A program made the position numbers and the translations under genes. From Candidatus Absconditabacterales bacterium (GTDB taxonomy: Bacteria; Patescibacteriota; Gracilibacteria; Absconditabacterales; Absconditicoccaceae): 30,762 nucleotides of DNA. Where the stretch lies: NCBI GenBank assembly GCA_023228925.1, contig JALOAF010000013.1:1-30762 (forward strand), in the 5' to 3' direction. This document shows positions 206 through 29,893 of the stretch, one piece after another. The notes below the pieces were generated by a model that worked only from the letters and a program-made list of their open reading frames with translations, was not told the origin of the DNA and did no database searches. Numbering within the stretch: the first letter of the stretch is position 1; each line of letters starts with the position of its first letter.

Positions 206-1660
206 ATGAACAAGAATATAATTAACTTAAATTTAATTGATGATAAAAAAATGAACATCAATACAAGTGAAAAGTCTAAACAAATACAATATATTCAATG
301 AACTTTAAGTGAAATAAAAAAAAATATTGAACATTTGACTGAAGTAAATAACACAAATAAAGATATTTATGATAAAATCAAAAAAGAAATCTTTGATATT
401 GTGTTGGCAAATGAACATTTAGCTATAGAAATAAATTCAATTCAAAGTGAAATAAAAAAAATATTATTGAACACAAATCCCAATTTAAAAATAAATTTAC
501 ACACAAAAAAAGAGGAAATTGATTTAAAAAAAAATGAAATAGAGACTAATACAAATAAAATTGAAACATTATCTCAAAAATTAAATGATATATCTAAACA
601 AATAAACAATATAGAGAACGAAATAAATATAGAAACAAATGATGAAATTTTTTTTTCATATCTGGGTCAATTGGTTAACTTTAAAGAACCTTCGTCTAAG
701 ATGAGCGTTAATGATTTGATAATAAAGCCAGAATGAATTAAAGAATTTGTAGATTCATACCAAAATAAAAACTTTCCAAAAGATTTGTTGGATAAGGTTG
801 TGTTTTTTAAGTGAAACAAAAACACTTGAAAACATTCTGTCATTAAAGCACTTGCTAATGATTTAAACCGTCCTGTATTTAGAGTAAAATATGATGATTA
901 TTTTAATGAAGAATGATTATATGTTATTTTTTGATTGATTACTTCTCATCTTAGACAACAAAGAGAGAAAAAAAACTGACAAATTGAATATTACAACCAA
1001 ACAATAGAACAAATAAAAAAAATAAAAGATTGAAAATTTCAAAAGGGTGATATCTATAGTATTCAAGACTTTGAAGGAAACAATTATGATTTTGATATGT
1101 GAACACAAAGATGAAAACAATGATATTTAGTTAATTTAGAAGAGTTTGCTAATAATTTAAAATATGATATAGATTTAATTGAAGACTCTTGTGTACTTTA
1201 TATAGATGACTTAGACCGCATAATACAGTCATCAAAATATGAAAAATGAGATTTGTTGTGACCTATTAAAATGGTAATAGATGATATAAAAAACGAAAAA
1301 CATGACATTATGTTAATTTTAGTTGGAAATGATTTATGAACTAATCACAATGACTTTAAGTTATGAATTGACAGGGTCTTCCAGTTTGATTGAATTGAAA
1401 AAAATTACCAAGGGACATTTGAACAAATGTTAAAAAAGAAACTAGAAAAGTTGAATATAAAGTATAGTATTTGAAAGTTTTCTTTGAACAATTTAGAGAA
1501 AAAATACAGAAATATTAAATTTTTGGATAAATTAGTAAAAAGAGTAATAAAAAATTATATCTGAACTTGAAAAATAATCACCCAAGAAAAATTTGATCTA
1601 GAATTAAACAATTTAATTGAATGAGAAAAATCTTTATATAATTGAATTTGATTAAAATAG
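206..1660 (+). CDS. coiled-coil AAA-type ATPase (UGA=Gly)
   Basis: A 484-residue protein when UGA is read as Gly. About the first 130 residues are Lys/Glu/Asn/Ile-rich with heptad-like character, so a coiled coil is likely. A P-loop GNKNTGKHS follows at residues 203-211. Both of its glycines (812-814 and 827-829) are UGA, and His stands where Ser/Thr is usual. The Walker B LYIDDLDR has its acidic pair at residues 334-335. A sensor-1-like LILVGND and an Arg-finger-like DRVFQFD come next. This order fits an AAA ATPase related to the FtsH/Cdc48 type, but there is no protease or membrane segment, so the substrate is unknown. It uses UGA for 22 of 27 glycines. It is preceded by a good promoter and followed by smpB 77 nt downstream. 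The ATPase fold is fairly sure; its job is not. Confidence 0.75.
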
Positions 1661-1737
1661 TTTTGTAATTTATTTTTTCTCTGTTTTTTTTATTTAAAAT
1701 AATTATATATTTATTGTAATTTAATTTTTTTGTAAAA

Positions 1738-2190
1738 ATGAAAATAATTTCAAAAAATAAAATAGCATATCGTGATTATAGTTTTGAAAAAAATTATGAG
1801 CTAGGAATAGTTTTGCTGTGACATGAGGTAAAATCCATAAAAATGTGACAAGTAAACATTAGGGATGCTATCGTAAGAATACAAAATAGAGAATTATGGG
1901 TCAAAAACATGGACATTCCTTTGTATAAAAAAACTTCTCCAATTTTGGCACCTGGATATCAAGCAAAAAGAGATAGAAAATTATTAGTTAAAAAAAGAGA
2001 ATTAGCTAAAATATCGGCATTAACAGACAAATCTGGGAATACAATAATTCCCTTAAAAATATATTTAAATCATAAATGATTTATCAAACTAGAAGTTGGC
2101 ATTGGAAAACTTATGAGAAAAATAGAAAAAAAACAAATATTAAAAGAAAAAGATATCAAAAGAGAAATGGATAGAGAAATAAGATCTTAG
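1738..2190 (+). CDS. smpB: SsrA-binding protein SmpB
   Basis: 150 residues, the normal SmpB length. SmpB binds tmRNA and delivers it to stalled ribosomes for trans-translation. The start MKIISKNKIAYRDY, the core ELGIVLLGHEVKSIK, the segment RELWVKNMDIPLYKK and the basic tail ending in KEKDIKREMDREIRS follow the family in order. The conserved glycines in LLGHEVKS and in NHKGF are UGA. The ATG at 1738 is the only start giving the proper N-terminus, and no Shine-Dalgarno motif precedes it. The substrates of ClpP, encoded elsewhere in this window, would include proteins tagged by this system. No tmRNA gene was found in the window. Confidence 0.93.
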
Positions 2191-2291
2191 CTGATAAAAT
2201 TGCTAGAATGATAAATGGACAAAATGATAATTAATAAATTAGAACTAGGCTGAAGAGTTGTAAATTATTGAGTAATTATAGACCATAAATA

Positions 2292-3386
2292 TTATCTAAA
2301 AAATATTTTTTTATAAATCATTTCTACAGCTAATTTTATACTATTAGAATTTTTTTGTCATTTTTTTAAGCTATGTTCTGTATAACGAATATGTACAGGA
2401 ACTTCTTTATATTTAATCTTATGTTTTTTTATCTGTTCATTTAATTCATTGGCATAGTGCATTCCATCTGCCATAATCTCAATTTTTCTAAGAGCATTTA
2501 TTTCTATAACTCTATATCAATTGTGAGGGTCTGATATTTTTGCACTATAAAAAATTACTGTAACTAGTCTAGAAATAGCTAGTATTATTTTTCTAAAAAA
2601 TGGAATATTTTCTGCTTTTCATCACTCAATAAACCTAGAACCTAAATATGCTTCAAATTTTCAACTATCTTTTTTAATTTCTGAAATAAAATATTCCATA
2701 TCTTTTATATCCATTTGCCCATCTGAATCAAATCAGACAAATCGTTTTACTTGAAGTTGATCAGCATATTTTTGAATAAATTTGTACCCTGTTTGGTTTG
2801 CTGCTCATCCTCCCCTATTTATTGTGTGAGACAAAATAACAAACAAACAATTAGGATATTGTTTTTTCTTTTCATATAAAACTTCTAAACTATTGTCTTT
2901 GGATCAATCGTTTATAAAAATTATTTTTTTGAATCAAGCTTTGATAATCTCATCAATAACAGATCCAACTACTTTTCATTCATTATAAACCCTAATATTA
3001 AAAATAAAATTATCTTTTTCTGTTTTATTTTTAAAATTTTTGATATTTTCTTTTTCTAATTCATAAGTCTTGTCTATGGAAAGATGCGTTATTAGTCTTG
3101 TAAGTTCATGTTTGTCTTTTGTATATTTATTGAATAATGTAATATAAAAATAAGCCAATACTACCAATGAAGCATATACTATTAAATCTGCTCATCTTGC
3201 TAATCCAAAAAATGTTCCAAATTTATTTAATAATGCATTGTCTATAGCAAAAATAATCAAGGCCAAAGATCACAAAAAAAACACAAAAAAATGTAAAATA
3301 TTCATTTTTTTGCGCTTGTATAAATCAATCCCAAAAAATAGAAATATAATGGCAACGATAATGATCAAAAATTGTAATAAAGACAT
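2292..3386 (-). CDS. membrane DUF2304 domain fused to family 2 glycosyltransferase (polyprenyl-phosphate type)
   Basis: 364 residues. The first ~110 carry three hydrophobic stretches (MSLLQFLIIIVAIIFLFFG, then HFFVFFLGSLALIIFAIDN, then LIVYASLVVLAYFYITLF), as in DUF2304 membrane proteins. The rest is a GT-A glycosyltransferase: VYNEG, the acceptor region INDGSKDNS, and the metal-binding FDSDGQ typical of DPM1/polyprenyl-phosphate sugar transferases. It probably moves a nucleotide-sugar onto a lipid carrier at the inner membrane. DUF2304 and GT2 proteins are usually separate neighbouring genes; here they are one chain. The ATG at 3384-3386 is chosen because it begins the first membrane helix. 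Several glycines (VYNEG, the Gly run after INR) use UGA. Sugar identity cannot be told. Confidence 0.82.
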
Positions 3387-3702: not shown

Positions 3703-4761
3703 TTAAGAATTATTTTTTTGTATAAATCTCCAAGCATCTTCTATAGCTTGATACATAGATCTACTATATTCTCGTCCTAATACTTGTTTTGCTTTTTGAG
3801 CATTTGCAATAGATGTGTCTATATCTCCAGGCCTTCTAGAAACTATTTTATAAGGAATTTCTTTTTCGGTAACTTTTTCTACTAACTCAATTATTTCTTT
3901 GACAGATTTGCCATCTCCTGTTCAAATATTGAATATATCAAAATATCATCTATTTGAATCAATTTTATTTTCTAATAAATATTCACGATATTTTAAGATT
4001 TGGTTGAATGCACTTAAATGAGCTTCCGCTACATCCATTACATGAATATAGTCTCTAACACCTGTACCATCTACCGTATCATAATCATCTCAAAATATTT
4101 GAACATGTTCTATTTCTCAATTAGCTACCTTTAGAATATAGGGAATCAAGTTACTTGGAACTCATTTAGGATCTTCTCCTATTAGTCCAGAGTGATGTGC
4201 TCATATTGGGTTGAAATATCTTAAATTTACAACATTAAATCATTTGAAAGTAGCTAAATCTTTTAGCATATATTCCATAATAAGCTTTGTTGTACCATAA
4301 GGGTTGTAAGTACCTACACGATCATTTTCACTAAATGGAGGTAATAATTTTGGAGAATCATAAACAGTCGCACTACTAGAAAAAACAATATTTTTTTTGT
4401 TGTATTTTTGCATAAGCTTTAATAAGTTGTGTGTTCAAATAACATTGTTTTCGTAATATAAAAATGGATCTTGACAACTCTCTCCCACTGCCTTTTTGGC
4501 TGCAAAATGAATTATTCCTTCTATTTCTGGGTGATTTTTAAAAACCTTTTCAAACTCCTCTAAATTTCTAATATCTAAATCATAAAATTTAAGTTTTTTT
4601 CATGTAATTTCTTTGATTTTATCTAATACAGAAATATCAGAATTGGATAGGTTGTCTACAATAATTATATTGTAATCTTCTTCCAGAAATACTGTAGATG
4701 TATGAGATCAAATATATCCTAATCATCAAGTAATGAGTATCGATCTACTCTGTTCTTCCAT
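3703..4761 (-). CDS. galE: UDP-glucose 4-epimerase
   Basis: 352 residues, full length for GalE, which interconverts UDP-glucose and UDP-galactose (or the GlcNAc forms) using NAD. The N-terminal Rossmann motif ILITGGLGYIGSH has three of its four glycines as UGA. The catalytic Ser region FSSSATVYD and the YxxxK pair in [11 protein letters not shown] are present. Further along are LRYFNPIGAH, the substrate-binding [18 protein letters not shown], the segment FNIGTGDGKSV and a C-terminal RRPGDI. The ATG at 4759-4761 gives [13 protein letters not shown], a normal distance to the NAD motif. It lies on the same strand as the glycosyltransferase and probably supplies its sugar nucleotide. The stop is followed by a strong hairpin. 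Confidence 0.95.
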
Positions 4762-4886: not shown

Positions 4887-6197
4887 CTAATTGAAATCTT
4901 TAGTAGAAAAAACTTCTTCTAATTTGAATTCTTTTTCTTTTCAAGTCTTTAGGTTTTTTATTTTATAAACTCATTTCTTGTTTTCTTCTTCTCCAAAAAT
5001 TATAATAAACATATAATCTTGTTTATCGGCATATTGAATAGCTTTTGTTATTTTTTGGGTTTCTAATCCGCCAACAATATTTTTTCAGTGCTTTCTAAAT
5101 TCTATAGCTAACTTAAGAATATCATCGTGTAAAGAATCTTCCAATACAGGAATATATATTTTTTCAATTTGTGTTTTATCTAATACCGAATTAATTAGTC
5201 ATCGAGATTCTAGGAATAATTTTGTTGTTTCATCTCCAGGCGCGAATCAAACAGCTGCTATATCATCTTTTATAAATATCTTGGATAATCAATTGTATCT
5301 TCCTCAACCAAATAATGCTCTTTTGTTGTCTGGATGTGTATCAAATATTTCAAACACAACTCCATCATAATAATCAAATCATCTAATCAGACTTGGTTTA
5401 AATTCTAAATATTCAGAATATCATAAATTATTTAATGATTGCATAATAAAGTTTGTTTGTTGAATTCATTTGGAATCTTGGATAGAAGGAAATTTTTTTA
5501 TTAAATCTTGGATTGTTTTTGAATTCATATATTCAATTAGCATATTTACTTGATTTTGATTTAATCATTTTTCTAATAGAATTTCGTTTATAGATTCTTG
5601 TGGTAGTTTGTCTCGTTTGTCCATAATTCTAACTGTTTCTTGTTTTATATCTCAAGATAATCAAATTTCTAATAATATTGAATCTATGATAAAACGATTA
5701 TTTATATTTAATTTCCAAGATCATTTTGGAGGATTAAATTCCAACATCAAAGATATCGCTAAAGAAAGAATTTCTATATCAGCATAAACCGTATCAGATC
5801 AGAAAATATCTACATTTAACTGTCGAAATTCTCTATTTCTACCTCTTTGCGGTCTTTCATTGCGATAAAAATTAGCTATACTAAAATATCTGATAGGTTT
5901 TGCTAATTGTGAATAGTTTTTGGAAACCATACGAGTAACTGTCGGTGTCATTTCTGGTCTAAGAGCCAACTCAGAAATCTTTCATTCTCTATTTGTTATC
6001 ATTGTAAGTTCAGATCATCAAACATCTTCTCCAGATTTTGCTTTTCGAATTTCAGCATTTTCTACTAAAGGTCAAAGGTATTCTTGATATCAAAATCTTA
6101 AACAAACATTTCTCCAAGAATCAAAAATATATTTACGAATTTGAAATTCTTGAGGATATCGGTCTTGTGTTCATTTTGCTGGTTGTGTTGAAAGCAT
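4887..6197 (-). CDS. hisS: histidine--tRNA ligase
   Basis: 436 residues, normal for bacterial HisRS, a class II synthetase charging tRNA-His. It starts MLSTQPAKGTQDRYPQE, the usual PKGTQD lead-in, with the Gly as UGA. Motif 2 lies around FYRNERPQRGRNREFRQ. The histidine-specific signature LIRGFDYYDGVVFEIF is intact. It ends with an anticodon-binding domain (KNIVGGLETQKITKAIQYAD). It sits downstream of a hypothetical gene (60-nt gap) that overlaps lysS, so lysS, the hypothetical gene and hisS may be co-transcribed. A 125-nt gap separates it from galE. Confidence 0.95.
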
Positions 6198-6257: not shown

Positions 6258-6764
6258 TTATATGCTTAAATCTTTTACAGCTATATGTTCCTTTATTTTC
6301 TTGATAATTTCTTGTCATTTTCTTCAAGCAGATCCTCAAAAAAATCAAATAACAAAAGAATAATTGGCTATATTTTCAGAAATTATATCTCAATATTGTT
6401 CTTGGAGTTTTTTTATATTTTCTTTTGCTTGAGAAATCACTTGATTGTTGTATCTTAATATAAGTAATTCTAAATTATGATTTTCTGCTGTATGATGATA
6501 TTGCTTTAAAATATCATAAACTATATTATTTCATTTATATTTATCAATTTCATTTGGAGAAACTGAAATATAATAAAAATCTGAGTAAGTTTGTTTTAAT
6601 TTGTCTAATAATGCCTTATTTTTATCATCAAGGAATAAACTATCAAACAAGTCTGAATTTGTTAGATTTTGAATATTTTTAGCTGACTTTATGTCATGTA
6701 AACTATTTTGAAAAAAATCTTTTTCCATATAATTTGTTGTATTAAAATTATTCAACATTTTCAT
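6258..6764 (-). CDS. hypothetical protein overlapping lysS
   Basis: 168 residues, not recognised. The N-terminal half is polar (Asn, Lys, Asp-rich). The middle (residues ~75-130) looks helical and partly amphipathic. Near the C-terminus there is a short hydrophobic glycine-rich stretch, SFVIGFFGGSAGRKGQE, encoded with several UGA codons, then a basic tail. The ATG at 6762-6764 lies inside the end of lysS, overlapping it by 17 nt (a second in-frame ATG lies 6 nt further in), which suggests translational coupling. The segment could be a weak membrane hairpin. No enzymatic motif is visible. Confidence 0.7.
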
Positions 6765-8364
6765 TTCAAGTATTTTCTGGTTTCATAATTGGGAACATCA
6801 CAACATCTCTAAGGTTATCTTGTTGAGTTAATATTGCTAAAATTCTTTCAAGTCACATACCAAACCCTGATTGTGGAGGCATTCCATACTCCATTGCTGT
6901 CACAAAATCCTTATCTTCTGCTGTGGCCTCTTCATCTCATTGAGCAGCAGCTTCTTTTTGAGCATCAAAATTTGCTTGTTGGAACACAGGATCTACCAAC
7001 TCTGAATATGCTTTACAAATTTCTCGCCCATTGACTAATAATTGAAACTGCTCTACTATTCCTTTATCTTCATCTGAAACTCTAGCTAAAGGTTGCATAA
7101 TTACAGGATAGTTGTAAATAAATGCAGGTCATAATATTTTTGGTCTAAGAACCTTTTTGTATAAATAGTCTATCAATGTTGTTGTTCCCATTGTGTCCAT
7201 TCTTTCAAATTCAATTCATTTTGCTTTGATATCTGACCTAAGCTTATCAGCATCATTTTGTCAGTATTGTGTAATATCTATTCCACTTGCATTAAAAATA
7301 CCTTTTGTATAATCTATTCTTTCCCATGGTGTGGAAAAATCTACTTCTTTTGTGTTTCAATCCTTATCTTTTACTGGTATTTTTCTATCTAATCACATAT
7401 TATCAAAAATATAGTCAAACATTTTTTCAGTAAACTTCATATTATCTTCATAATTTCGATATACTGCATAATGTTCTACTTGAGTAAATTCTTGTAGATG
7501 TGAAGGATCAGATCATTCGTTTCTAAAATCTTGTCATATCTCAAAAACTTTTTCAAATCTTCAAACTGTCGCCTTTTTAAGAGCAGTTTCAAATGCTATT
7601 CTAAGATAAAATTCTGTATCAAAGTCGTTGTGGTATGTGATAAAAGGTTTTGCTGCAGCTCCAGAAGCTGCATTACAAAGTATTGATGTTTGAATTTCTG
7701 TAAATCATTCTTTATGATAAAACTCTCTTAATATGTGATAAAATTTAGATTTAAATAAAAATCTTTCATAAGAATTTGGATCCATCGTCATATCCAAATA
7801 TCTTTTTCTATACAATTCTTCTTGATCTACCAATCCATGAAATTTTTCTGGTAATGGTCTAATTGCTTTGGATAAAAATTTAAATTCAGAAACAAAAATA
7901 GTCAGCTCTCATTTGTGAGTAGTAAAAACTTCTCCTCTAACTCAAATAAAATCTCAAACATCTATCATTTTTTCCATAAATTTGTATGCAGATATCTCTT
8001 GATCCTCAGACAATAAAGACTCAAACAATTCTGAAGAGTTTTGAGAAATAGATCTGTCTATTTTACAATTGTCTCTGTGAAACATAAGTTGTATTTGTCC
8101 AGTAGAATCAAGTAGTCTCAAAAACGCTAATTTCCCATGACTACGATGAAGCATCACTCTCCCTGCCGTTTTGATTTGTAGTTCAGGTTTTGGGATAATA
8201 TCATTGATATCTCTATGAGCTTTATCTCAAAATTCCTTGATAATATCAACAATAAGGTGTGTTTTTTGGAAACTTTGAGCATATGGAACTACTCCCATTT
8301 TAGACATTGCCTTTGTTTTTTGGATTCTAACATCTCTTTCAGATAATTGATTGTTTTGGTTCAT
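6748..8364 (-). CDS. lysS: lysine--tRNA ligase, class II
   Basis: 538 residues, slightly longer than the ~500 typical of LysS. An OB-fold anticodon domain comes first (TAGRVMLHRSHGKLAFLRL, then FIGVRGEVFTTHKGELTIFV). The class II core follows: motif 1 around YRKRYLDMTMDP, motif 2 with FEIGQDFRNEGSDPSH, and motif 3 GFGMGLERILAIL. These identify LysRS, not AspRS or AsnRS. The start is MNQNNQLSERD at 8362-8364. Only 64 nt separate its start from the stop of the pilin-like gene. Its 3' end overlaps the following hypothetical gene. Confidence 0.94.
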
Positions 8365-8428: not shown

Positions 8429-9529
8429 TTAAGGTAAAAAGCCAGTATAATTAATTTCCTTTCGATTAAAATAAGAATTTTTGAATCAAATTGATGTTTG
8501 CAAGCTTATTTCTTCATTGGAATCGTGTCAATAAATGTTTGCTGTCAAAGCTATTGTGATGTAAGGATCTAATAAATGTTCTGGTTCATTTATAGCCAAA
8601 TAAGGATCTTTTGCTGGCCAAAGTTCTATATTTCGGTCTGAAATTGTAATTTTTGGATTTGTAAGATTGACCCGTCCATCATCGGAATCAATTGGTAACT
8701 TGTATCAAGAAAGCATTCATGATCAAATAGATTCTCAAGAACAAATAAATCAATTAGAATAATCACATGCCCAAGTGTCTATAAATCAATCTTCAGTGAA
8801 TTGATCTGAGTTTTCAATATTGTGAGAATTTCATAAATCAAATCATTTCAATTTTAGAATTTGTATTGTATATTGTGATTCGTTTTTTCAAGTGTACAAT
8901 CAATCTCAATTCAAATCTATTAAAGTAAGAAGTTTTTTCCTGAAAAAAATCCTATGATTTCATTCTTTATTAATTAGGTATAATTCTTGAACTCAAGTAT
9001 TGTGATAAATAGAGGTTGGTCAAGTTCAAAGAAAAACATCATTTCAATCATTTAATGTAGAATCTATAATATTCCAAAACTGATATTGATATTGTAAAAA
9101 TTTTTGTACTCAAGACTGTATGCATCAATTAGAATCAGATAATGAATAATGATTGTATCAAGGCTGTCCTCAATCTATATTGGAACAATAGTATAAATTT
9201 CAAGAATTTCAATAGTGTGTAAATAAGTCACAATATCAGTCTCAAGTTTTTTGCCAAGAAAATTCTTCTGTACTTGAGCTACATCAAACTACTCCTCTAT
9301 TAAAGTATTCTTCATAATCTATAGTATAATCCAATGATAAGTCAGAAATTTGATCCAAAAAATTGTTGGTTTCTGATAATAAAACTTGTTGATTTAAAAT
9401 TGTTTTTTCTGATATTTTTGTATTTACATACATATGAAAAATTATTCATGCTATCAAAGAAAAAATAATTGTTGCCAAAACTATTTCAAACAAAGTAAAT
9501 GCTTTTTTTTTCATACTAAAAAATTTCAT
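8429..9529 (-). CDS. type IV pilin-like / prepilin N-terminal domain protein
   Basis: 366 residues from the ATG at 9527-9529, or 361 from an in-frame ATG at 9512-9514. Either start leads into KKKAFTLFEIVLATIIFS, a class III signal: basic residues, FTLFE with the required Glu at mature position 5, and a hydrophobic helix. Ala stands where the residue before the cleavage site is normally Gly. The remainder is a long Asn/Ser/Tyr/Asp-rich extracellular region with several cysteines. It is larger than a major pilin, so a minor pilin or pseudopilin is likely. No pilus assembly ATPase, prepilin peptidase or platform gene lies in the window. It diverges from clpP. Confidence 0.75.
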
Positions 9530-9663: not shown

Positions 9664-10248
9664 ATGACCTTAGTACCTAGTGTTATAGAAAAAAGTAAGG
9701 CTGGAGAAAGAGCCTATGATATTTATTCTAGACTTTTGGAAGATAGAATTATTTTTGTTTGAGATGTTGTTTCAGCACCATTGGTAAATACTGTTGTAGC
9801 ACAATTATTGTATTTAGAAAAAAAAGATCCAGACAAAGATATTGTAATGTACATAAACTCCCCTGGATGAGAAGTTTATAGTGGTATGGCTATTTATGAT
9901 ACTATGCAACACATAAAATGTGATGTTGTAACTATTGCTACTTGATTGGCAGCATCTATGGGCTCTATATTTTTAGCTGGAGGAACAAAATGAAAAAGAT
10001 ATGCTTTACCTCATAGTAAAATAATGATTCATCAGCCACTAATTAGTTGAGGAGGGATTACATGACAAGCAACAGATATTCAAATTGAAGCAGCAGAAAT
10101 GATGAAGGTAAAAAAAATGTTTATAAAATTAATGTCTGAACATACTGGACAAGACATTAAAAAAGTAGAACAGGATATGGAAAGAAATAATTGGATGACT
10201 CCAGAAGATGCTTTAAAGTACGGTATTATTGATAAAATCATAAAATAA
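9664..10248 (+). CDS. clpP: ATP-dependent Clp protease proteolytic subunit, Asn in the catalytic triad
   Basis: 194 residues, normal for ClpP, the barrel-shaped peptidase that works with Clp ATPases. Family blocks are clear: [40 protein letters not shown], the nucleophile Ser98 in LAASMGS, and His123 in MIHQPL. The third member of the triad, Asp185 in E. coli ClpP (ERDRF), aligns with Asn175 in MERNNWM. The alignment holds because the only length change between His and this site is a 3-residue insertion after HQPL. Listeria ClpP1 is known to carry Asn here. UGA supplies several conserved glycines. The second UGA-free TGG beside Asn175 is a true Trp codon. There is no Shine-Dalgarno motif upstream. 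Confidence 0.95.
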
Positions 10249-10776: not shown

Positions 10777-12438
10777 GTGAAATATAAAATATTGAATGAA
10801 GATGAAAATTTGAATTTAATCGAAAGATTATTAAAAATTAGAGGCATAAGTGAAGATGCCGATATTTTTTTGAATCCAAAAATAAAAGATTATCGATTGG
10901 ACCCTATGAAACTAAACGATATGTCAAAGGCTGTAGATAGGATAATATTGGCTTTGAAAAATAATGAAAAAATTATGATATTTGGAGATTATGATGTAGA
11001 TGGGATAACATCTAGTTTTATTTTGTTCAAATTTTTTACAAAATTCTTGAAATACAGAAATATTAGTATTATGTATCCAGATAGAATCGAAGAATGATAT
11101 GGAATCAAAAACTTACATCTGGATGAGATAAAAAAAAAGGGAGTAAGTTTGGTGATTACTGTAGATAACGGGATTACAAATATTCAAGAAGCAGAATATG
11201 CTAAAAAAATTTGATTGGATATGATTATAACTGATCACCATAAAAATTTAGAAAAAATTCCAGATGCTATCGCTGTAATAAATCCTTTGATTTCAGTGAA
11301 TTATAATTTTAAGTATTTAGCATGAGTTGGTGTTGCTTTTAAGTTGTTGTGTGCTTTATTGGATAATACTAAAAATCGAAGCGAAAAAAAGAAAAATGAT
11401 ATTTTTAATTATTTTTTACCGATAGTAGCCATTTGAACAGTTGCAGACATTGTGTCATTAACTTGAGAAAATAGATTGTTGGTAAAAAAATGATTGGATT
11501 TAATAAATAAGCATCGTGATCAAATACCAGAATCATTGCAATGATTTTTGGAGTACCTTAATTTAAAAGAGGTAGATACTTTCCATATAGGATTTGTAAT
11601 TTGACCCAGAATAAATGCATGATGAAGAATTGATTCTCCTTATAATAGTTTAAATACATTATTATTTACTGGAAATAAACAACTAGAAGCACTACAAAAA
11701 ATAGATGAAATAAATAATGATAGAAAAAAATTACAAGAAGATGCTTTTAAAATAGCAGAAGAAATGTTGGACTTAGATCAAAAAATTTTAATTGCAGAAC
11801 ATGAAGATTTTCATGAATGAGTAGTAGGTATAGTTTCGTGAAAAATCACTGAAAAGTACAACAAGCCCAGTATTGTTTTTAAAATAAATAAAGATAAATG
11901 AATTGCTGTTGCCAGCCTAAGATGACCAGAATATTTTAATATAATAGAAATGTTACAAAAACATTCTGATTTGTTAGAAAGATCTGGAGGGCACAAACAA
12001 GCTGGATGACTAACAATATTATTAGACAATTTAGATGAGTTTAAGCAAAATGTAGAAAAATACTGTAATGAAATAATTAGTGACGATGATTTAGGAAAGA
12101 TATTATATATCGATACAAAAATATATAGCGATGAGTGGAATTACCAGCTAATACAAGGATTGGAAAATCTTGCACCTTTTGGAGAGTGAAATAAAGAACC
12201 ACAATTTTTATTTGAGAATATAACTGTTGAAAAGGTTGAAAAAGTATGAAAAAATGGGAATGGACATATGAAAATATATTGAATATTTGGAGATAAAAAA
12301 ATCAATTTTCTATTTCGATGAAAAGGTGATATGATAAAAAAAATTAATGTTGATAGTAAGATTAATATTATATGAAAAATTAAAAAAGATGACTTTAACG
12401 GAGGTCATTACGTGAATTGAACTGAAATAATTGAATAA
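10777..12438 (+). CDS. recJ: single-stranded-DNA-specific exonuclease RecJ
   Basis: 553 residues, usual for RecJ, the 5'-3' ssDNA exonuclease of recombination and mismatch repair. The DHH-family motifs are all present: FGDYDVDGITSS (Asp residues at 71-75), ITVDNGI, ITDHH (153-155) and GTVADIVS. The DHHA1 domain follows with SGGHKQAGG, then a C-terminal OB-like region (LAPFGEGNKEPQFLFEN). It starts with GTG at 10777, needed to include the conserved N-terminus MKYKILNEDENLN. UGA encodes many glycines, for example in IGPRINAGGRID. It is followed by two short hairpins (12441-12490). Confidence 0.95.
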
Positions 12439-13189: not shown

Positions 13190-13474
13190 ATGTCTATTAC
13201 AAAACTTTGAAACGAGAAAGATGGTTTAAGAGGAAAAAAGTCATCCAATTTTATAAAAAAAATCAGTGATAAAATTTTTTCTTTTTTATCTTGAAGTAGA
13301 TATTATGATGATGAAACTTGAGTAGACACAAGAACACAGACAGAAAGAAATTTAGAAAAAACATGAGAAATGTATTATTTAGAAAAAGAAAGAAATAAGG
13401 AAGAAACTGAAAAATATAAAAAAGACTGAAAATTTATTTGAGACTGAGAACACTTGGGGAAATTAGTCAACTAA
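13190..13474 (+). CDS. small hypothetical protein converging with alaS
   Basis: 94 residues, highly charged, with no hydrophobic segment. It starts MSITKLGNEKDGLRGKKSS, then has KKISDKIFSFLSGSRYYDD and a Lys/Glu-rich helical middle, and ends GEHLGKLVN. At least seven glycines are UGA. Its last 12 bases overlap the end of alaS on the opposite strand (TTAGTCAACTAA holds both stop codons). Function unknown. The run of UGA codons and open frame support a real gene, though homology was not recognised. Confidence 0.55.
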
Positions 13475-18218: not shown

Positions 18219-20225
18219 TTAAAGGGTTTCAATCACTATTCCAGGATAGTAGTAGCGAAGTATATCTGTATAACTCCATCCGAATTGAGTCCACCTTTCA
18301 GCTCCAAGTCAGCTTAGTCCAACTCAATGTCCAGCGAACTTTTTATCTTGGCATATTCACAAGTCAAACTTTGATTTTAGATAAGGAGTATCATTTCGTC
18401 ATCGTTTTTCGTTTGCTGAATAAGTAAATCCAGCTGAACATGAAAAGTATGGTAACAATGGAACATTATTGTTGTAAAGAACAATTTTATTTTTTGTTTT
18501 TTCTAATGCCGTATACCATTTTGTCAAAGTTTTTTCTAATCATGCTCACACATATTTTTGGAAAATCCTAGAATCATCCACAGCATTGTAGGTAGCTTGT
18601 GAAGGTATATTTGGATGAATATTTTTTGGATTCATATAAAATAAAGCATAAGATTTGGATATCAACGACATAACTTCATTTTTTGTAGTTGATTCTGTAT
18701 CATTGGTTTCTGCTATTCACTTCATATAATCTCAAAAAGGAAGCTTGTTTATAACTACATATTTATTTTGTTCTACTCAATTTAGATCTTTCATATAATC
18801 TTTTTTGAAAATCAAAGAACCACGAAAAGTATTCCAAGCTATACCAGCATAAGATTTTCTAGTGTAATTATCTATACTGATAAGGCTGTTTTTTGGTACA
18901 ACAGACAATCTATCTACATTGTAAGTATTTCATCACAAATTCAACTGTAGTTTGTCAGAAACTTTTATAGTAGCATTATTTGCTTCAAGTTTATTTTGAT
19001 TAAAATAAAAAATACATCATTGCTCACAAGACAAATTATATTCAGAATAATCTTGAGTTAGTTCGTAAAGAAGCACAGAAATATCTTGATTTAAATAAAT
19101 TTTGGCCTGATTTTTATCTATTTTTCATAATAATCTACTAATATTTGCATTTGAAAATGTTATATTGTTTTTGTTTATATAGTCGTTTTTAATAGCTCTA
19201 ACTGCTGGTGCAATTTTAGTTTGCATAGATTCAAAGTAGCTATAAGTTAATTTTGTTTTGGGAGCTGGCTTGGATGAATTGTTGGTGATAGTTTCTTGTA
19301 CTGATTTTAAGCCACTAGCACTTGTAAGAGTTTTTCATTCCAAAAGATCTTTTACTCCATTTCTAACAAAAGGAAGCAATTCATACAAATATTTACCAGG
19401 ACAAGCTGTAATACCAGCATCTTTATGTCATGCTATTACATAATTTTCAGCAGAAACAATATATGGAGCTTCTTTGGAATCTTTATGATAATCTGTTCTA
19501 GAAAAAGGATTTATATTATATTTCTTAGCTAAAGCTGCAGATAATCTAATAAGAGAATCAAGTGCTTCTTTTGTGGGTTTTACATTTTCAAAGTTTCAAA
19601 TTAAAGAAACTCCTATGCTTGGTGTGTTGTTTCGTTTTGCATGAGCTCAAACTACTCACTCTCATCCTGCTCTACCTTCATAAATATTTCCAAAAGGATC
19701 TATCAAAAAATTGTAACCTATATCTCCTCGTCAATTAGTAATGGTGTGGTATCGATAAACTCAACTCAAATATTCCAAAACATCTGACTTGTTGTTTAAA
19801 ATTGTATTGTCTGATGCTGTGTGATGAACAATAATTTTTGTTTTATTATTCTTGATATATTCTGGCCAAAAAAGATAATTCCCATTGCTTTCATATTTTG
19901 TCCAATCTAAATCTATTTCAGAATAATATTTTGATTTCAAATAATCATTTGCCATTTGTTCTTGGTATTCTTGCTCTTTAATAGACCAATATTTTTCTGC
20001 ATCTGTTTCTCTAAGTTCATTCATTTTTTGTTCGTTTTTTTCTGAATTTATTTTATTTCTTTCGATTTTGGACATAGTAGAATATCTCAAAGCTTCGTTT
20101 GCTCATCGTTGATCACGAGTTATGATTTTAATTCACGGAAGATTTCGATCTGCTGCAAAAATAGCTGAAAATCAAAATGTAAAAACAGATAGCAATAAAA
20201 AAATAATTTTAAATTGTTTGACCAT
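18219..20225 (-). CDS. secreted N-acetylmuramoyl-L-alanine amidase (PGRP fold) fused to SpoIID/LytB domain
   Basis: 668 residues. A signal peptide opens it (MVKQFKIIFLLLSVFTFGFS, Ala-rich cleavage region). After a Glu/Lys-rich linker comes an amidase_2/PGRP domain: IIVHHTAS with a Zn-binding His, GDIGYNFLIDPFGNIYEGRA, and GHKDAGITACPG with the remaining ligands. From about residue 420 a SpoIID/LytB domain follows: INKLPFGDYMKGIAE with the candidate catalytic Glu, then SYALFYM, PYFSCSAGFT and AGHGVGLSGLGA, ending in DILRYYYPGIVIETL. The first domain cuts the stem peptide from MurNAc; SpoIID enzymes are lytic transglycosylases that prefer such stripped glycan. Having both in one chain joins two consecutive steps of murein breakdown. 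In sporulating bacteria the activities are separate proteins. Confidence 0.88.
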
Positions 20226-20501: not shown

Positions 20502-21440
20502 ATGCAATTTACTCATCTGCATTGACATAGTACTTTTTCTTTTTTAGAAGCTATATGAACTCCAAAAAAAATAATCCAAAAAGCTAAAGAATTAAACTTT
20601 GAAAATATAGCTTTGACTGATCTTGGAGGAATATATGGAGCTATTGCTTTTTATGACAGTGCCAAAGAGAGTGGGATAAATCCTATTATTGGCACAGAGT
20701 TGGGTTTTGTTTTGGACATCAATGGGTATAATAAAATTGAAAATATTGGAAATGTTTGTTTATTGGCAAAAAATGAAGATGGATACAAAAGCTTGATGAA
20801 AATAGTTTCTCATGCAAATCAAGAATGAATTTCTGGTAAAGCAAAATGTGATATCAAAATGTTGGAAAAATTCAATCAATGATTGATTGCTTTTATGTGA
20901 GGAGAAGAATCATGGATTGGAAAAATGATTTTTAGATCTGAAGCTGATGAAAAAATAATTGAAATAATAAAGATGATACAAGATAAAATTTGAAAAGAAA
21001 ATGTTTTTTTGGAGCTTGTAGCACAAAGTGAGTTAGAAAATCAAAACTTGAAAAAAATAAATAACAAAATAATTGAACTAGCTCAGCAATTAGAAATAAA
21101 GTGTATTGTAAACAACATTTATCAATATATAAACCAAAACGACAAAGAAGTATGGGAAATGGCTTTAGCCATCAAAGATGGAAACAAAATATATGATGAT
21201 CACAGAAGAAAACCAAAAGAAAAATATCATTTGATGTCTGGACAAGAAATTTTTGATATAATGGTAGACAATTGATATAGTGAAGAACAAACTAAAAATT
21301 GGATAAACAATAACAATGAAATAGCTAAAACTATAAAAATAGAAATTCCTATGGGACAAACTTTATTCCCAAACTACTCTACTCCACCACATATACAAGA
21401 ATTGTATGAAAAAGTAAAAAACAATTTAATTTCAGAATAA
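20502..21440 (+). CDS. stand-alone PHP domain of the DNA polymerase III alpha (DnaE) type
   Basis: 312 residues against about 1,100 for DnaE. It matches only the N-terminal PHP domain: MQFTHLHGHSTFSFLEA with the HxH metal pair, ALTDLGGIYGAIAFYD, then PIIGTELGF, then VCLLAKNEDGYKSLMKI, and the later YHLMSGQEIFD. It ends just after LFPNYSTPP, the linker that in DnaE leads into the polymerase palm, with TAA at 21438-21440. In the usual TDHG motif the His is Leu, so one metal ligand is missing. No polymerase sequence follows. It may be half of a split dnaE or a PHP protein with another role. The intact frame argues against recent decay. In DnaE-type proteins PHP is a proofreading nuclease or a structural module. 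Confidence 0.8.
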
Positions 21441-21541: not shown

Positions 21542-21625
21542 AAGCAAGTAAAAAAAATTTTTGTGATTGAAAAATAATTGGGTATCTATAAGTTGGTAAA
21601 TAATTTAATTAATTTTGAAAAATGA

Positions 21626-24007
21626 ATGCAAAATGTAAAAGAATATTTGGCTTGAAAGTTAAACGAAGAACAATTAAAAGCTGCTTTACATACAGATAGT
21701 TCTAGTTTAATTTTAGCTGGAGCTGGATCTGGAAAAACAAGAACATTGACATATAAAATATGATATTTAATGTTTGGCTTAAAAATCAATCCAAGCAACA
21801 TTTTGGCTGTAACTTTTACCAATAAGGCAGCCAATGAAATGAAAGAAAGATTACTAGAAATTTCAGAAGAGTTTCAAGAAATAATTTCTGATGATCAATG
21901 ACAATCAATGTCAAACAAATCTTCTTTACAAAATGAAAACAAACAAAACATTGAAAGCAAAGAAAAAAATGACCAAGAAGATAGTATTAATGATTTTTTG
22001 GATTTTATAGAACAAACTAAAACAAATACGAGTGGAAATAGTATCAAATATAACGAAAAAGATTTTAAACGAATTGGGACCTTTCATAGTATTTTTCTAA
22101 AAATACTAAAAGAAGATATTGATAAATTGGAAATGAAATATGACAAAAATTTTACAATAATAGATTCAAATGATAGCAATAAGGTAGCTAAAGATCTTTT
22201 AAAAAAACTTAATTTAGATGAAGTATTCAAACCAAATGAAGTAAAGTGATTTATTAGCAATCAAAAAAATAATTGATACGATGCAAAAATGTTCCAATCA
22301 AAAACGACTACAGATTATGAACAAAATATGGGAAAAGTTTATGTAGAATACCAAAAAGAGTTAGAAAAATCAAATATGTTGGATTTTGATGATTTATTGC
22401 TACTACCATATTTGCTTTTTAGGAAAAGACCCGATATATTAGAAAAATGGAAAAAGAAATTCTTGTATATTATGGTCGATGAGGCTCAAGACACAAACTG
22501 GATACAATTTGAACTTATGATGATGCTTAGCGGAAAAGATGGAAATATTACCTTGATATGAGATGATTATCAAAGTATTTATGGCTGGAGATGAGCCTTG
22601 ATGGAAAATTTTTTGAATGTAAAAAAGTATTGGCCAGATATCCAAATGTTTAAACTACAAATCAACTATCGTTCTCGTCCATATATTGTAAATGCTGGAA
22701 ATTCCATTATAAAAAATAACTTAAAACAATACAACAAAGATGTACATTCCCATAGAGAAGAAGATGGAAAAATTACTGTTTTTTGTCACAACTCTGATAT
22801 AGATGAAGCAGCAAATATAATAGATCTGATTATGAAAATGAAAGATAAAGGTAAAATTGAAAAACTATGAGATGTTTCCATATTATATAGGACCAACGCT
22901 CAGTCTTCTACTTTTGAACAAATTTTAGTACAAGAAAAAATACCCTATAAAATATGGTGAGCATATAAGTTTTTTGAAAGAGAAGAAGTAAAAGATATTT
23001 TGGCATACATTAAATATTTAGCAAATAGTGGAGATTCTGTTTCTTTAAAAAGAATTATAAACAAACCAACAAGATGAATTGGAAAAGATAGTCTATTAAA
23101 ATTGGAAGATTATGCGACTATCAATGGTTTGACACTTCATGAGGTATTAGAAAATATAGAAAGCATCCCTGTCGAAATTAACAGCAAGGCCAAAAATGGA
23201 ATCTTAGAATTTAAAAGAATAATCCATGAAATTACTGATAATTGGGACAAATACTGACCTGCTGACACTATTAGCAAAATAATACAATCTATAAAATATA
23301 AAAGCCATTTGGAGGAAAAGAAGACTCATGGAAGTAGTAAAGTAGCAGAAAGGTATGAAAACATCTGACAATTAATAAATATGGCATCAAGTTATATACA
23401 AAAATGACATGAATCTATAAAACAATTTATAGAAGAAATAACATTGATGACCGATGTGGTAAATGATGAAAATGCAAGTGCAGATGTAATCAAGCTTATG
23501 ACTATTCATAGCAGTAAGGGTTTGGAGTTTCCTTATGTATTTATAGCTGGTGTAGAAGAAAATATGTTTCCTTTGACAAATGCTGTAATGGAAGCGCATT
23601 TGTTGGAAGAAGAAAGAAGATTGATGTATGTGGGAGTTACTAGAGCAAAAGATTATTTGTTTTTATCTTATGCAAATAGCAGAATGACTCGGTGACAATT
23701 TAGAAACAATCCTCCTAGCAGATTCATTTGAGAGATACCAGAAGAGCTTACAAAACATTATGATCTATGATCTGGTAGAAGCAAAAACTCAAGAATGGAA
23801 TCTCATTCCGATCAAAACAATATGATGTATTATTACGATGATACAAGCAGGCCAGAAATTAATATAAATGAATGAGATAATGTAAACCACAAACTCTTTG
23901 GTGATGGCTATGTGTTGGAAATACGAGACCACTTAGCAGTAGTAAGATTTAACGATCCAAAAATAGGAGTAAGAAAAATGGAAGCAAGATTTTTAAAAAC
24001 AATATAG
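21626..24007 (+). CDS. UvrD/PcrA/Rep-family superfamily 1 DNA helicase
   Basis: 793 residues, an ATP-driven 3'-5' helicase of repair and replication restart. Motifs in order: Q-motif region [10 protein letters not shown], Walker [14 protein letters not shown] (residues ~30-42), Ia [16 protein letters not shown], Ib [19 protein letters not shown] (Asp285), [61 protein letters not shown] low-complexity Ser/Asn/Glu/Lys-rich insert sits between Ia and Ib (residues ~93-145), unusual for PcrA. The C-terminal end has the tail FGDGYVLEI...VRF typical of PcrA. The start is ATG 21626; in-frame TTG codons upstream (21578, 21593) would add only a short extension without homology. PcrA and UvrD cannot be separated here. 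Confidence 0.95.
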
Positions 24008-24759: not shown

Positions 24760-25356
24760 ATGATCACATTAAAAACACTAGCTTATGACTTTAATGCTTT
24801 AGAACCGTTTATTGATGCAAAAACTGTAGAAATTCATCATACAAAGCATCATCAGTGATATGTAGATAAATTAAATTGATTAATAGCTGGAACAGAATTT
24901 GAAAACATGAACTTGGAAAATATTATCATAAACTCTAACGGAGCCATATTCAACAATGCTGCTCAGGTTTGGAATCACACTTTTTATCGAGAAGGAATGA
25001 ACTGACAAGCTGAAAATGAGAAATGGGATTTTACTTACCGACAAGCAAAGGTAAAAGATCAGATTGAAAAAAAACGAGGAAGTTTTGAAAACTTTAAAAC
25101 AGAATTTACAAACAATGCTATATGAAATTTTGGATCTGGATGGACTTGGCTTGTGAAAGATGGTAATGGAGAATTAAGTATTGTAAATACTAGTAATGCT
25201 GAAAATCCTATGACCAGTGGACTTATCCCATTGTTGACTGTAGATGTTTGGGAACACGCTTATTATCTAAAATATCAGAATAGAAGAGCTGAATATTTAG
25301 AAAATTGGCGAAGTTTGGTAAATTGGGAGAAGGTCGAGGAACTGTATAAAAACTAA
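24760..25356 (+). CDS. sodB: superoxide dismutase, iron type
   Basis: 198 residues, the normal length. It turns superoxide into peroxide and oxygen. The metal ligands are visible: His in VEIHHTKHH, His in [12 protein letters not shown], and Asp and His in [12 protein letters not shown]. Gln in the NNAAQVWNH motif and the GSGWTWLV segment without the Mn-type Gln point to the Fe form. The match to the E. coli SodB pattern is close along the whole length, including the ending [13 protein letters not shown]. Only 4 of 13 glycines are UGA, for example in HHQGYVDKLNG, where Gly replaces the common Thr. The low UGA share fits high expression or acquisition from a standard-code donor. Confidence 0.93.
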
Positions 25357-25885: not shown

Positions 25886-27103
25886 ATGAAAAAAATTAAA
25901 ATAATATTAATATTTCTGTTTGGTGTTTTGATTGGTGGAAGTATAATGAGATTTTGACCAAGTGATTTTTTTGACAATATTCTAAAATGAAAGAATGAGG
26001 AACAAAGTGAATTAGATTACTTTAAAAACAAATATGAACGCTTTGAAACTTTGGATGAGCTATTAAATTTTTGATACTATGATTATGAAAAAATAGATGA
26101 AGAAGATATGATTAAATGAGCTATTAAAGCTTATATTGATGCCATTAAAGATCCTTATACTGTATATATGGATGCAGAACAAAATAATGGTTTTTTGGGG
26201 AGTTTGGAATGAGAAGAAAATTTTGAATGAATTTGAGCTGCTGTGACTAAAAAAGAATATTATATACAAATTGAGGAGGTCTTGAAAGAGTCTCCTGCTA
26301 TGAAGGCCGGGCTTAGACCATTGGATCGTATTATAGCTATAGATACTGGATATGTAGAAAATGAAAGCTTGGAAGAGTCGGTTGCTAGAATCAAGTGACC
26401 AGCTGGGAGTAATGTAAGTTTAATAATTGAAAGATATGAAAAGGATGATAAAAGAGAAGTTTTTGAAATCACTATTATTAGAGAAACTATCAATATACCA
26501 TCAGTAGAAAGTGAAATATTTGAAATAAATACTAAAAAAATATGATATATAGAAATATTCTTGATAGGAGAAGAGACTGAAAACATATTCAAAAAAGAAG
26601 TAAATAAACTAAAGTCTGAATGAGTGGAAGGAATAATTTTAGATTTAAGAGGTAATGGATGATGACTTATGCCAGTAGCTGTAGAGGTAGTTTCTCATTT
26701 TATAACAAAATGACAATTAGTGGTCTCAGCCAACTACAAGTGATATCAAGATGAAAAATATTATTCAAAATGATTTGCAGAGTTTGAATGATTAAAAACT
26801 ATAGTGCTAATTGACTGAATGACTGCTAGTGCTGGAGAAATAATAGCTATTGCATTACAAGAACAAGCTGGAGCAAAACTTTTGTGAACAAACAGCTTTG
26901 GTAAATGAACAATTCAAACTTTAGATGAATTTAGAGATGGAGATAGCTTAAAATATACTATATGAAAACGATTTCCACCCAGTGATAAAAACATAGATAA
27001 TATATGAATAAAACCAGATATTATTGTGGAATTTGATATGGAAAATTATTTAGAAAACAATATAGATAATCAATTGGAAGAGGCAAAAAATTTGTTTAAA
27101 TAA
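25886..27103 (+). CDS. ctpA: S41-family C-terminal processing peptidase
   Basis: 405 residues. An N-terminal membrane anchor or signal (IKIILIFLFGVLIGGSIM) leads into a secreted or membrane-tethered serine protease. The order is the CTP family's: a helical lead-in with IKDPYTVYMDAEQ, a PDZ domain (FEGIGAAVTKKEYYIQIEEV, then SPAMKAGLRPLDRIIAID), and the S41 core GIILDLRGNGGGLMPVAVEV. The catalytic Ser is in IDGMTASAGEI and the Lys in GTNSFGKGTIQ. It ends with a substrate-domain segment GIKPDIIVEFD. Such proteases trim the C-termini of exported proteins. Many glycines are UGA, including those of the Gly triplet. It is in an operon with yraN. Confidence 0.93.
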
Positions 27104-27280: not shown

Positions 27281-27589
27281 ATGATAAAAGTAATAGTACA
27301 AGATTCAAATTGAGTAGAATTGGGAAGTTTTGAAGCAGAAAAATGAAAAGTATTTACGGATATGGCGCAAGAACATGATATTGAGATTCCTTTTTCTTGT
27401 TGAAGTTGATCTTGCGGGCTCTGTTTATGTGAGGTTGTAGAATGAAGAGAAGTAATAAATGAATCATTTTTACAAGAACCTTTAATGGAAATGTATGAAA
27501 ATGAGGTTTTGACTTGTATTTCTGCCGTCAAAGATGAATATTTTGAGAAAGAAGAAAATTATACTATAATATTAAAAAGAAAGTTCTAG
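27281..27589 (+). CDS. [2Fe-2S] ferredoxin
   Basis: 102 residues, the size of plant/adrenodoxin-type ferredoxins, which carry one electron between redox enzymes. The cluster loop PFSCGSGSCGLCLC gives the C-x4-C-x2-C ligands, and the fourth Cys is in VLTCISAV near residue 82. Two of the three glycines inside the loop are UGA and one is GGG. An N-terminal ubiquitin-like strand pair (MIKVIVQDSNGVELG) precedes it. The partner enzyme is not in the window. The ECF-like sigma factor gene starts 28 nt downstream, so they may be co-transcribed. The 177-nt stretch upstream has no gene. Confidence 0.9.
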
Positions 27590-27617
27590 AAAAGGAAAAT
27601 GTTGAAGTGTTTAATTA

Positions 27618-28680: not shown

Positions 28681-28702
28681 TAACAACTCACAGTCTAAAA
28701 TA

Positions 28703-28733
28703 AAAAATCTTCTACTTGTTAGAAGATTTTTTT
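28703..28733 (+). terminator. strong Rho-independent terminator after hup
   Basis: A long perfect stem AAAAATCTTCTA/TAGAAGATTTTT with a 5-7 nt loop (CTTGT) runs into a T7 tract. It begins 22 nt after the hup stop. Confidence 0.85.
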
Positions 28734-28816
28734 ATGTAAAAATATATAAATTAAAATTTTATTTACAGTAATAATGCTTTTCTGTTGATTTTGGATAACT
28801 AAACTATATTTTAGCA

Positions 28817-29239
28817 ATGTATTTATTTGTAAAACACAAAAAAATGAATTGATATGTTTTCTTAGCTTTTATCGTTTGAGGACTAATAGGTTTTTTCTTA
28901 TTTTACTTTAGATATAAGTATAAAGATGTAGTAAATGAATTGAGATGAAACTTAAAATCTGCCAATAAAGAACTAGAATACTTAAATCATGAACTAGATG
29001 AATTTACGCATCAAAATGCAATATTAAAAGAAAAAGTAACAGAACTACTTGATAAAAATGATGAATTATCGGAGGTGGTTGCTGAATTGAGTAAATATTA
29101 TGTTCATATCAAAAGAGCTAGTGAAAAAACTAGTGAACTTACCAAATTTTTAGCTGATCCAAATCCTGAAATAGAAGAAAAAATGAAAAATATTTTGAAA
29201 AGATCAGAAGATATAAGTAGTGAAAAAACTTTTTTTTAG
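28817..29239 (+). CDS. single-pass membrane protein with coiled coil
   Basis: 140 residues. After a short basic N-terminus (MYLFVKHKKM) comes one membrane helix (VFLAFIVGGLIGFFLFYF, with two glycines as UGA or GGN), a positively charged stop (RYKYK), then a long Glu/Lys/Leu heptad region (ELEYLNHELDEF, then ILKEKVTELLDKNDELSEVV) and a polar tail. The order predicts an N-in anchor with a coiled coil outside or, by the positive-inside rule, a cytoplasmic one. No family is recognised. It is 15 nt ahead of a methyltransferase gene, most likely in one transcript. Confidence 0.75.
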
Positions 29240-29254
29240 TAGAATTTTGTAAAT

Positions 29255-29893
29255 ATGGCACATAATTCTAAATATGTAAAAATATTGAATTCAGAAGAAT
29301 GATATAATCTAATTTCAAATCAATATAAAAAACATCATTCTCATCTGGATTCTTTTTTAAACTTAGAAATATCCAGATTTCTTCCGAGAAAACATGAAAA
29401 TCTGGATATAATAGACTTAGGAGCAGGAGATGGTAGAATTTTCAAACATTTTGAAAATATAAATTTTAGAAAATATGTAGCTTGTGATATAGCAGAAAAA
29501 CTGTTAGAAAAACATCCAAAACAGTGAATAAAAGTCCAAAAAATAGTATGTGATTTAAATAAAAAATTATCATTTGATGATGAAAGTTTTGATATTGCAA
29601 CAAGTTTTTTTGTCTTGGAACATATCAAAAATTTGGAATGATTATTTGAAGAAGTTTATAGAATTTTAAAAAATGGAGGAAAGCGAATAATTGGACACTT
29701 TATACAAAGAAGAGAATTTGAATGGGAACATTGAAAATGAAAAGAACATATCAAATTTAAGATACAACAATATCGTTATAAATTAGAAGACTTAAAAAAA
29801 ATAGCTGAATATAATTTTTTTAATTTCAAATATCAGGAAATTGTGGGAAAGTGAGTTTTAATAGGATACTTGATTGTGTGTGAAAAAAATTAA
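29255..29893 (+). CDS. class I SAM-dependent methyltransferase
   Basis: 212 residues. The SAM-binding motif I IIDLGAGDGRIFKHF, acidic motif II (KYVACDIAEKLLEK), the DLNKKLSFDDESFDIATSFF segment and the motif VLEHIKNLEGLFEEVYRILK with GGK follow the Methyltransf_11 pattern. The target, possibly a lipid, quinone, RNA or small molecule, cannot be read from the sequence. Start ATG at 29255, 15 nt after the coiled-coil gene. A hairpin follows the stop. Confidence 0.88.

Follow-up and report, generated by a model that had tools for sequence, protein, structure and literature searches.

The window is a stretch of 30,762 nucleotides (contig JALOAF010000013.1, positions 1 to 30,762 of the forward strand; assembly GCA_023228925.1) from a Candidatus Absconditabacterales bacterium. 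It is described here for its genetic code, in which UGA is glycine, CGA is tryptophan, and CGG is very probably tryptophan. Read with UGA as sense, it contained 29 genes on both strands from 206 to 30572, covering 87% of its length, and the GC content was 26%. Among the 8,957 codons of these genes, TGA occurs in frame 329 times and TAA and TAG not at all. Twenty of the 29 proteins were given to a Pfam search and 16 matched, ordinary housekeeping families among them. The genes that matter here are as follows, with their in-frame TGA, CGA, and CGG codons.

206..1660, + strand: AAA ATPase domain protein of 484 amino acids (PF00004), 22 TGA
1738..2190, + strand: SmpB, named from sequence, 3 TGA
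2292..3386, - strand: DUF2304 and glycosyltransferase family 2, 12 TGA and 1 CGA (CGA and TGG opposite it in relatives)
3703..4761, - strand: GalE-like epimerase, 12 TGA
4887..6197, - strand: HisRS, 21 TGA and 5 CGA
6748..8364, - strand: LysRS, 16 TGA and 2 CGA
8429..9529, - strand: pilin-like protein with no Pfam match, 28 TGA, 2 CGA, and 1 CGG
9664..10248, + strand: ClpP, named from sequence, 6 TGA
10777..12438, + strand: RecJ, named from sequence, 21 TGA and 3 CGA
13463..15040, - strand: AlaRS of 525 amino acids, 20 TGA and 6 CGA
15162..17234, - strand: protein of 690 amino acids with no Pfam match, 33 TGA
17305..18132, - strand: WecG/TagA glycosyltransferase, 8 TGA and 3 CGA
18219..20225, - strand: Amidase_2 domain protein, 24 TGA and 7 CGA
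20502..21440, + strand: stand-alone PHP domain protein, 7 TGA
21578..24007, + strand: UvrD/Rep helicase, 18 TGA, 2 CGA, and 1 CGG
24760..25356, + strand: Fe superoxide dismutase (FeSOD), 4 TGA and 4 CGA
25886..27103, + strand: CtpA-type S41 peptidase, 21 TGA
27281..27589, + strand: 2Fe-2S ferredoxin, 5 TGA

Protein identity and gene order indicate that the lineage is Absconditabacteria (SR1), or Absconditibacteriota. This is one of the two lineages named in a preliminary description made from the letters alone. The nearest genome compared was UR.bin133. Its contig C22 was collinear with the first 24 kb of the window, with 15 genes in the same order, and the median protein identity was 89%. The window LysRS was 72 to 88% identical to 13 full-length loci, candidate division SR1 records among them, and 92% identical to a protein named Candidatus Absconditabacterales. 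It was 55% identical or less to the loci from L014 down, except for the partial locus L056 (78%). The group of 14 Absconditabacteria loci used below is defined here by LysRS identity, with a cutoff of about 71%.

In-frame TGA was present in 28 of the 29 genes, and the HU gene was the sole gene with none. The genes end in TAA (19) or TAG (10) and none ends in TGA. TGA-free runs within genes had a mean of 24 codons, and the longest was 144. TGA was the commonest glycine codon in the window (329 of 582). The preliminary description had read TGA as sense, had all genes ending in TAA or TAG, and had put TGA on conserved glycines. All of this stands, and the three motifs below carry the codons it claimed. 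Its statement that TGG is still tryptophan also holds: in the motif Fe[11 protein letters not shown] both tryptophans are TGG, and the glycine is GGA.

4708-4728, - strand: GalE GGLGYIG motif, TGA TGA TTA GGA TAT ATT TGA, three TGA at glycine
1813-1836, + strand: SmpB LLGHEVKS motif, one TGA, at glycine
27398-27415, + strand: ferredoxin CGSGSC motif, two TGA, at glycine

A column test was made with the window LysRS, HisRS, AlaRS, RecJ, and UvrD, aligned with TGA, CGA, and CGG masked. The outgroup was 126 proteins of these five genes taken as standard-code. For four of the genes they came from 19 relatives with two or more release-factor matches, and for LysRS from 54 loci. Columns with less than 60% occupancy and LysRS loci L014 to L020, L022, L023, L056, and L077 were excluded, and 2,576 columns were usable. 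As a check on the method, well-sampled codons returned the expected residue. The own residue was not ranked first for the thinly sampled or weakly conserved codons GCG, TGC, ATC, CTC, CTG, CCG, TCC, TCG, and ACG. TGA fell in 84 columns, of which 46 were dominated by glycine and none by tryptophan (hypergeometric P 9e-40). Its log-likelihood was +99.7 for glycine, -75 for the next best of all residues, and -126.8 for tryptophan.

The window genes contained 42 CGA and 4 CGG codons. These two codons (CGR) make up 46 of the 100 tryptophan codons. Per 10,000 gene codons there were 47 CGA, 4.5 CGG, and 60 UGG. CGA fell in 17 outgroup columns, 5 of them dominated by tryptophan and none by arginine (hypergeometric P 1.9e-8). 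Tryptophan-dominated columns are rare overall (15 of 2,576). The log-likelihood of CGA was +15.4 for tryptophan, -3.7 for phenylalanine, -6.4 for tyrosine, and -23.0 for arginine. For comparison, ordinary TGG scored +14.3 for tryptophan over 16 columns. The clearest CGA positions in AlaRS and FeSOD are as follows.

14621..14623, - strand: AlaRS residue 140, CGA, tryptophan in 19 of 19 outgroup proteins
14561..14563, - strand: AlaRS residue 160, CGA, tryptophan in 19 of 19 outgroup proteins
14438..14440, - strand: AlaRS residue 201, CGA, tryptophan in 19 of 19 outgroup proteins
24988..24990, + strand: FeSOD residue 77, CGA, opposite the tryptophan of HTFYW in the three superoxide dismutase chains shown
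25309..25311, + strand: FeSOD residue 184, CGA, opposite tryptophan in the three chains shown

The comparison of FeSOD with solved superoxide dismutases read CGA as arginine and was thus biased against a tryptophan result. Rescoring against Pfam with CGA as tryptophan in place of arginine was tried in two proteins, and both rose. Sod_Fe_C went from 136.9 to 142.0, Sod_Fe_N from 93.2 to 99.8, and tRNA-synt_2c from 452.3 to 467.5.

Codon exchange between orthologs gives a test that is independent of any outside code. For the window against the loci, alignments of fewer than 60 columns or less than 50% identity were excluded. Ortholog exchange counts excluded columns without 4 of 8 identical neighbors. 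At 31 CGA positions of the window, the 14 Absconditabacteria loci had CGA 42 times, TGG 29 times, CGG 6 times, and other codons 10 times. AGA, AGG, CGT, and CGC did not occur there. Two LysRS positions were CGA, TGG, or CGG in all 14 aligned loci.

7456-7458, - strand: LysRS residue 303, CGA
7024-7026, - strand: LysRS residue 447, CGA

The same pattern was found between UR.bin133 and RAAC1_SR1_1. In 274 ortholog pairs of these two relatives, CGR was paired with TGG 203 times (0.87 of expectation), with AGA or AGG (AGR) twice (0.012), and with CGT or CGC (CGY) once (0.011). TGA was paired with GGN 1,809 times and with TGG 7 times (0.025). Across all Absconditabacteria loci at 60 to 95% identity there were 210 CGR-TGG pairs, 2 CGR-AGR pairs (329 expected), and no CGR-CGY pairs (216 expected). 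Standard-code loci over the same range had 1 CGR-TGG pair and 1,001 CGR-AGR pairs. In the standard-code control at 40 to 70% identity, CGR-TGG was 0 (1,311 expected) and CGR-AGR was 1.05 of expectation. The partners of CGG, taken over the Absconditabacteria loci together, were CGA (69), TGG (48), CGG (22), AGG (1), and CGC (1). Together, columns and exchange indicate that CGA is tryptophan in the window and not arginine. CGG, which is rare there (4 codons), is very probably tryptophan too.

CGA and CGG together exceed TGG in the higher-GC Absconditabacteria loci L002, L004, L006, and L007; L004, for example, has 62 CGA and 25 CGG against 55 TGG per 10,000. CGR may be the main spelling of tryptophan in these four loci. 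Among the loci with LysRS identity of 55% or less, L018 pairs CGA with AGA (50) and CGT (10) at 14 positions, so CGA would be arginine there. L015 pairs CGA with TGG (16) at 2 positions, so there it would be tryptophan. Both rest on sparse data. In L016, L017, L019, and L020, CGG pairs with CGG or TGG at 1 to 3 positions each, and on these few positions it looks like tryptophan.

The inventory of tRNAs and release factors was taken from two relatives. One is UR.bin133 (G001), of which 687 kb out of some 1.1 Mb were read, and the other is the complete genome RAAC1_SR1_1 (G002). Each genome has one tRNA of each key type. The tRNA(UCA) of both carries G1:C72, C2:G71, G3:C70, and U73, which is the glycine tRNA rule given in PMC8629427. 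The tRNA-Trp(CCA), tRNA(UCG), and tRNA(CCG) of both carry G73 and U20, and all but one of them, taken up below, have A1:U72. The arginine tRNAs GCG, UCU, and CCU of both carry A73 and A20. No CGR-reading tRNA other than UCG and CCG was found in UR.bin133 or RAAC1_SR1_1. In both genomes read, A36 of the tRNA(UCA) anticodon loop is followed by G37. Relatives of this tRNA that were at least 85% identical and full-length or nearly so were present in 31 of 59 genomes, all within the first 36 listed. It is highly conserved in these 31 genomes (L380-L409; 85 to 100%), and tRNA(UCG) (L410-L439) drifts much more.

Both relatives encode one full-length release factor of the RF1 type, with the PxT motif PAT in RAAC1_SR1_1 and PDT in UR.bin133. 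RF2 was not detected in UR.bin133, a metagenome-assembled genome, or in the complete RAAC1_SR1_1. RAAC1_SR1_1 also has a second PF00472 match, in a short protein scoring 54 bits, which we read as ArfB-like. Among the first 36 of 59 relatives listed, a single PF00472 match above 100 bits was found in 34; of the other two, one has a weak match and one has none. All 10 release factors read from those 34 single-match relatives were of the PxT type. The motif itself varies (PAT, PDT, PET, and PVT; G001 C64:18049-18381, L131-L138). The GGQ context is unusual, AASSxGGQNANKNQTG or close to it, versus the RASGAGGQHVN type in several outgroups. Four genomes each have two PF00579 matches. Our reading of the pair, in the two genomes read, is one TyrRS and one TrpRS. 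With one TrpRS per genome, a single enzyme presumably charges all three tRNAs. GGSDQWGN, which we take to be a TyrRS motif, has CGA for its tryptophan in the TyrRS of both genomes read.

The preliminary description had named a tRNA-Gly(UCA) and an absent RF2 as things to look for in a full genome. A glycine-type tRNA(UCA) is present in both relatives, and RF1 is present where RF2 was not found. The window's own genome presumably has the same inventory, by its kinship with UR.bin133 (at the median protein identity given above). In the proposed mechanism RF2 would have been lost, and RF1 would terminate genes at UAA and UAG. The tRNA(UCA) with glycine acceptor features would read UGA. The tryptophan-type tRNA(UCG) and tRNA(CCG) would read CGA and CGG as tryptophan, and the ordinary tRNA-Trp(CCA) would keep UGG. 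Arginine would be kept by tRNA(GCG) for CGU and CGC and by tRNA(UCU) and tRNA(CCU) for AGA and AGG.

Several observations weigh against this code. No tRNA was found in the window. The tRNA(UCG) of G002 starts with G1:C72, unlike the A1:U72 of tRNA-Trp. Tryptophan is not the dominant residue in 12 CGA columns out of 17, and most of these 12 have Phe, Tyr, Leu, or mixed residues. Arginine is the commonest residue (4 sequences) at the CGA column of UvrD residue 783. Six pairs of CGR with an arginine codon occur in Absconditabacteria loci; four gene pairs account for them, and L006, L056, and L011 are the loci concerned. Only one outgroup column was usable for the CGG codons of the window, and it is aromatic; the log-likelihoods of CGG were 2.4 for tyrosine, 2.2 for phenylalanine, and 1.8 for tryptophan. 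The sense of CGG rests on relatives because the window offers only this column and one aligned position.

23690-23692, + strand: UvrD/Rep helicase CGG, outgroup column Y9 F9 W1
8672-8674, - strand: pilin-like protein CGG, the sole aligned CGG position, with five TGG and three CGA in relatives

Three other codes have to be weighed. UGA as tryptophan (table 4) is assumed by some gene callers, and P0001, the public database copy of the window LysRS, is written that way, with all 16 TGA as W and CGA as Arg. None of the 84 TGA columns is dominated by tryptophan, the log-likelihood is strongly negative, and TGA-TGG exchange is 0.025 of expectation. Table 4 is thus ruled out, as the preliminary description had also concluded, and we give it virtually no credence. 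The description had settled on code 25, and that assignment stands in part. Table 25 is named for SR1 and Gracilibacteria, and its UGA as glycine agrees with the column test, as do the UAA and UAG stops. Its arginine reading of CGA is ruled out by the column and exchange tests: arginine scores -23.0 against +15.4 for tryptophan, no aligned window CGA has an AGR or CGY partner in the 14 loci, and CGR met arginine codons 3 times against 203 for TGG in the 274 pairs. Code 25 would mistranslate some of the best tryptophan columns, FeSOD residues 77 and 184 for example. That it applies exactly, with all else standard, is very improbable.

Ambiguous decoding, with CGA and CGG part arginine and part tryptophan, would be marginally easier to accept than table 25, and we consider it very improbable too. 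The evidence here is sequence patterns, and selection that purged CGR from critical arginine sites could look the same as a clean separation. Shulgina and Eddy state that sequence cannot rule out ambiguous translation (PMC8629427). However, the UCG and CCG tRNAs of the relatives lack A20 and A73, no other CGR-reading tRNA was found in them, and nearly half of the tryptophan codons are CGR. The window almost certainly comes from the chromosome of an Absconditabacteria (SR1) bacterium in which UGA is glycine, CGA is tryptophan, and CGG, on the same reasoning from tRNAs, is tryptophan as well.

The arginine codons CGU and CGC were suspected of a new sense, as the CGT of the window aligned with AGA only twice. 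This was ruled out. CGT and CGC score arginine in the column test, and LysRS residue 74 is an example, with arginine in 54 of 54 outgroup sequences. A CGC codon of HisRS also lies opposite an invariant arginine, and CGY therefore stays arginine.

5862-5864, - strand: HisRS motif-2 arginine 112, CGC, arginine in 17 of 17 outgroup proteins

The low CGT-AGA exchange led instead to a different observation. Once CGR is lost to tryptophan, no silent change of one base leads from AGR to CGY. AGR-CGY exchange in the 274 ortholog pairs was 107, or 0.39 of expectation (95% interval, 0.33 to 0.47). In the same pairs serine TCN-AGY was 0.46 and leucine 0.95. At 40 to 70% identity AGR-CGY was 1.14 (0.77 to 1.17) in standard-code loci and 0.32 (0.15 to 0.53) in Absconditabacteria loci. 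Expectation was computed differently in this control and in the 274-pair test, and the loci used as controls are of other phyla and other GC content. The difference was weaker at 60 to 95% identity, where the intervals touch (Absconditabacteria, 0.47 [0.02 to 0.53]; standard, 0.72 [0.51 to 0.76]), and at 70 to 95% identity (0.47 [0.02 to 0.53] versus 0.67 [0.54 to 0.83]). Gracilibacteria gave 0.63 with a wide interval (0.00 to 0.72). In the standard code, serine is the only amino acid with two codon islands. On balance we favor a reshaped code in which arginine would be split in the same way, into AGA/AGG and CGU/CGC, with codon exchange already reflecting the split. A limited literature search found no prior paper on arginine islands, which is thin evidence of novelty. 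If the split is real, the clade is a natural experiment on the constraints that a broken network of synonymous codons places on protein evolution.

Under table 25, 46 of the 100 tryptophan codons of the window become arginine, so the official table mistranslates the proteins of this group. Of 7,969 LysRS proteins found, 120 were listed, and in these the residue at either CGA column is always Arg or Trp (88/32 and 57/63); at the single TGG column, 89 have Trp and 31 Arg. The mix at the CGA columns looks like a single tryptophan recorded in two forms. The system also poses a clean question for biochemists: by what means a single tryptophanyl-tRNA synthetase would recognize tRNAs with three anticodons (CCA, CCG, and UCG), two of which (CCG and UCG) ArgRS would have to refuse.

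Two window proteins are short. AlaRS (about 525 amino acids) stops inside the editing region, and short forms also occur in L010 (528), L001 (457, although this one may be truncated), and G002 (570 codons from one stop to the next). The PHP-domain protein has 312 amino acids and lacks the rest of the DnaE polymerase. Its orthologs in G001 and G002 are of about equal length.

UGA as glycine with CGA and CGG as tryptophan was already known as a prediction for Absconditabacteria, made by Shulgina and Eddy in 2021 (PMC8629427). A stop-to-glycine change of UGA has also been described for 53 genomes of class JAEDAM01 (PMC13092985). No later test of CGA and CGG as tryptophan in Absconditabacteria was found in the literature searched, and the searches turned up no experiment on the prediction. 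What is added here is codon exchange between orthologs as an independent test, with the arginine split as a testable consequence.

The window shares with the predicted code (PMC8629427) UGA as glycine, CGA and very probably CGG as tryptophan, and low GC. Its two relatives share tRNA(UCG) and tRNA(CCG) with tryptophan features, and arginine by tRNA(GCG) and AGA. The prediction placed the change at an early stage, with CGA below 37 and CGG below 7 per 10,000 Pfam-aligned codons in all but one species. The window has 47 and 4.5 per 10,000 gene codons, a different denominator, and CGR makes up 46% of its tryptophan codons. NCBI code 25 is like the window in UGA as glycine and in UAA and UAG as stops, and unlike it in leaving CGA and CGG as arginine. 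The apparently mixed sense of CGA and CGG in L015 to L020 fits the patchy picture of Gracilibacteria in PMC8629427. There, CGG to tryptophan in some Gracilibacteria, Anaerococcus, and RFN20 Bacilli is, as in the window, a low-GC takeover of CGN codons by a tryptophan-type tRNA. In the Firmicutes Anaerococcus and RFN20, tRNA(UCG) was lost and CGG alone moved (PMC8629427). Absconditabacteria instead keep tRNA(UCG) with its identity changed, and CGA therefore moved too.

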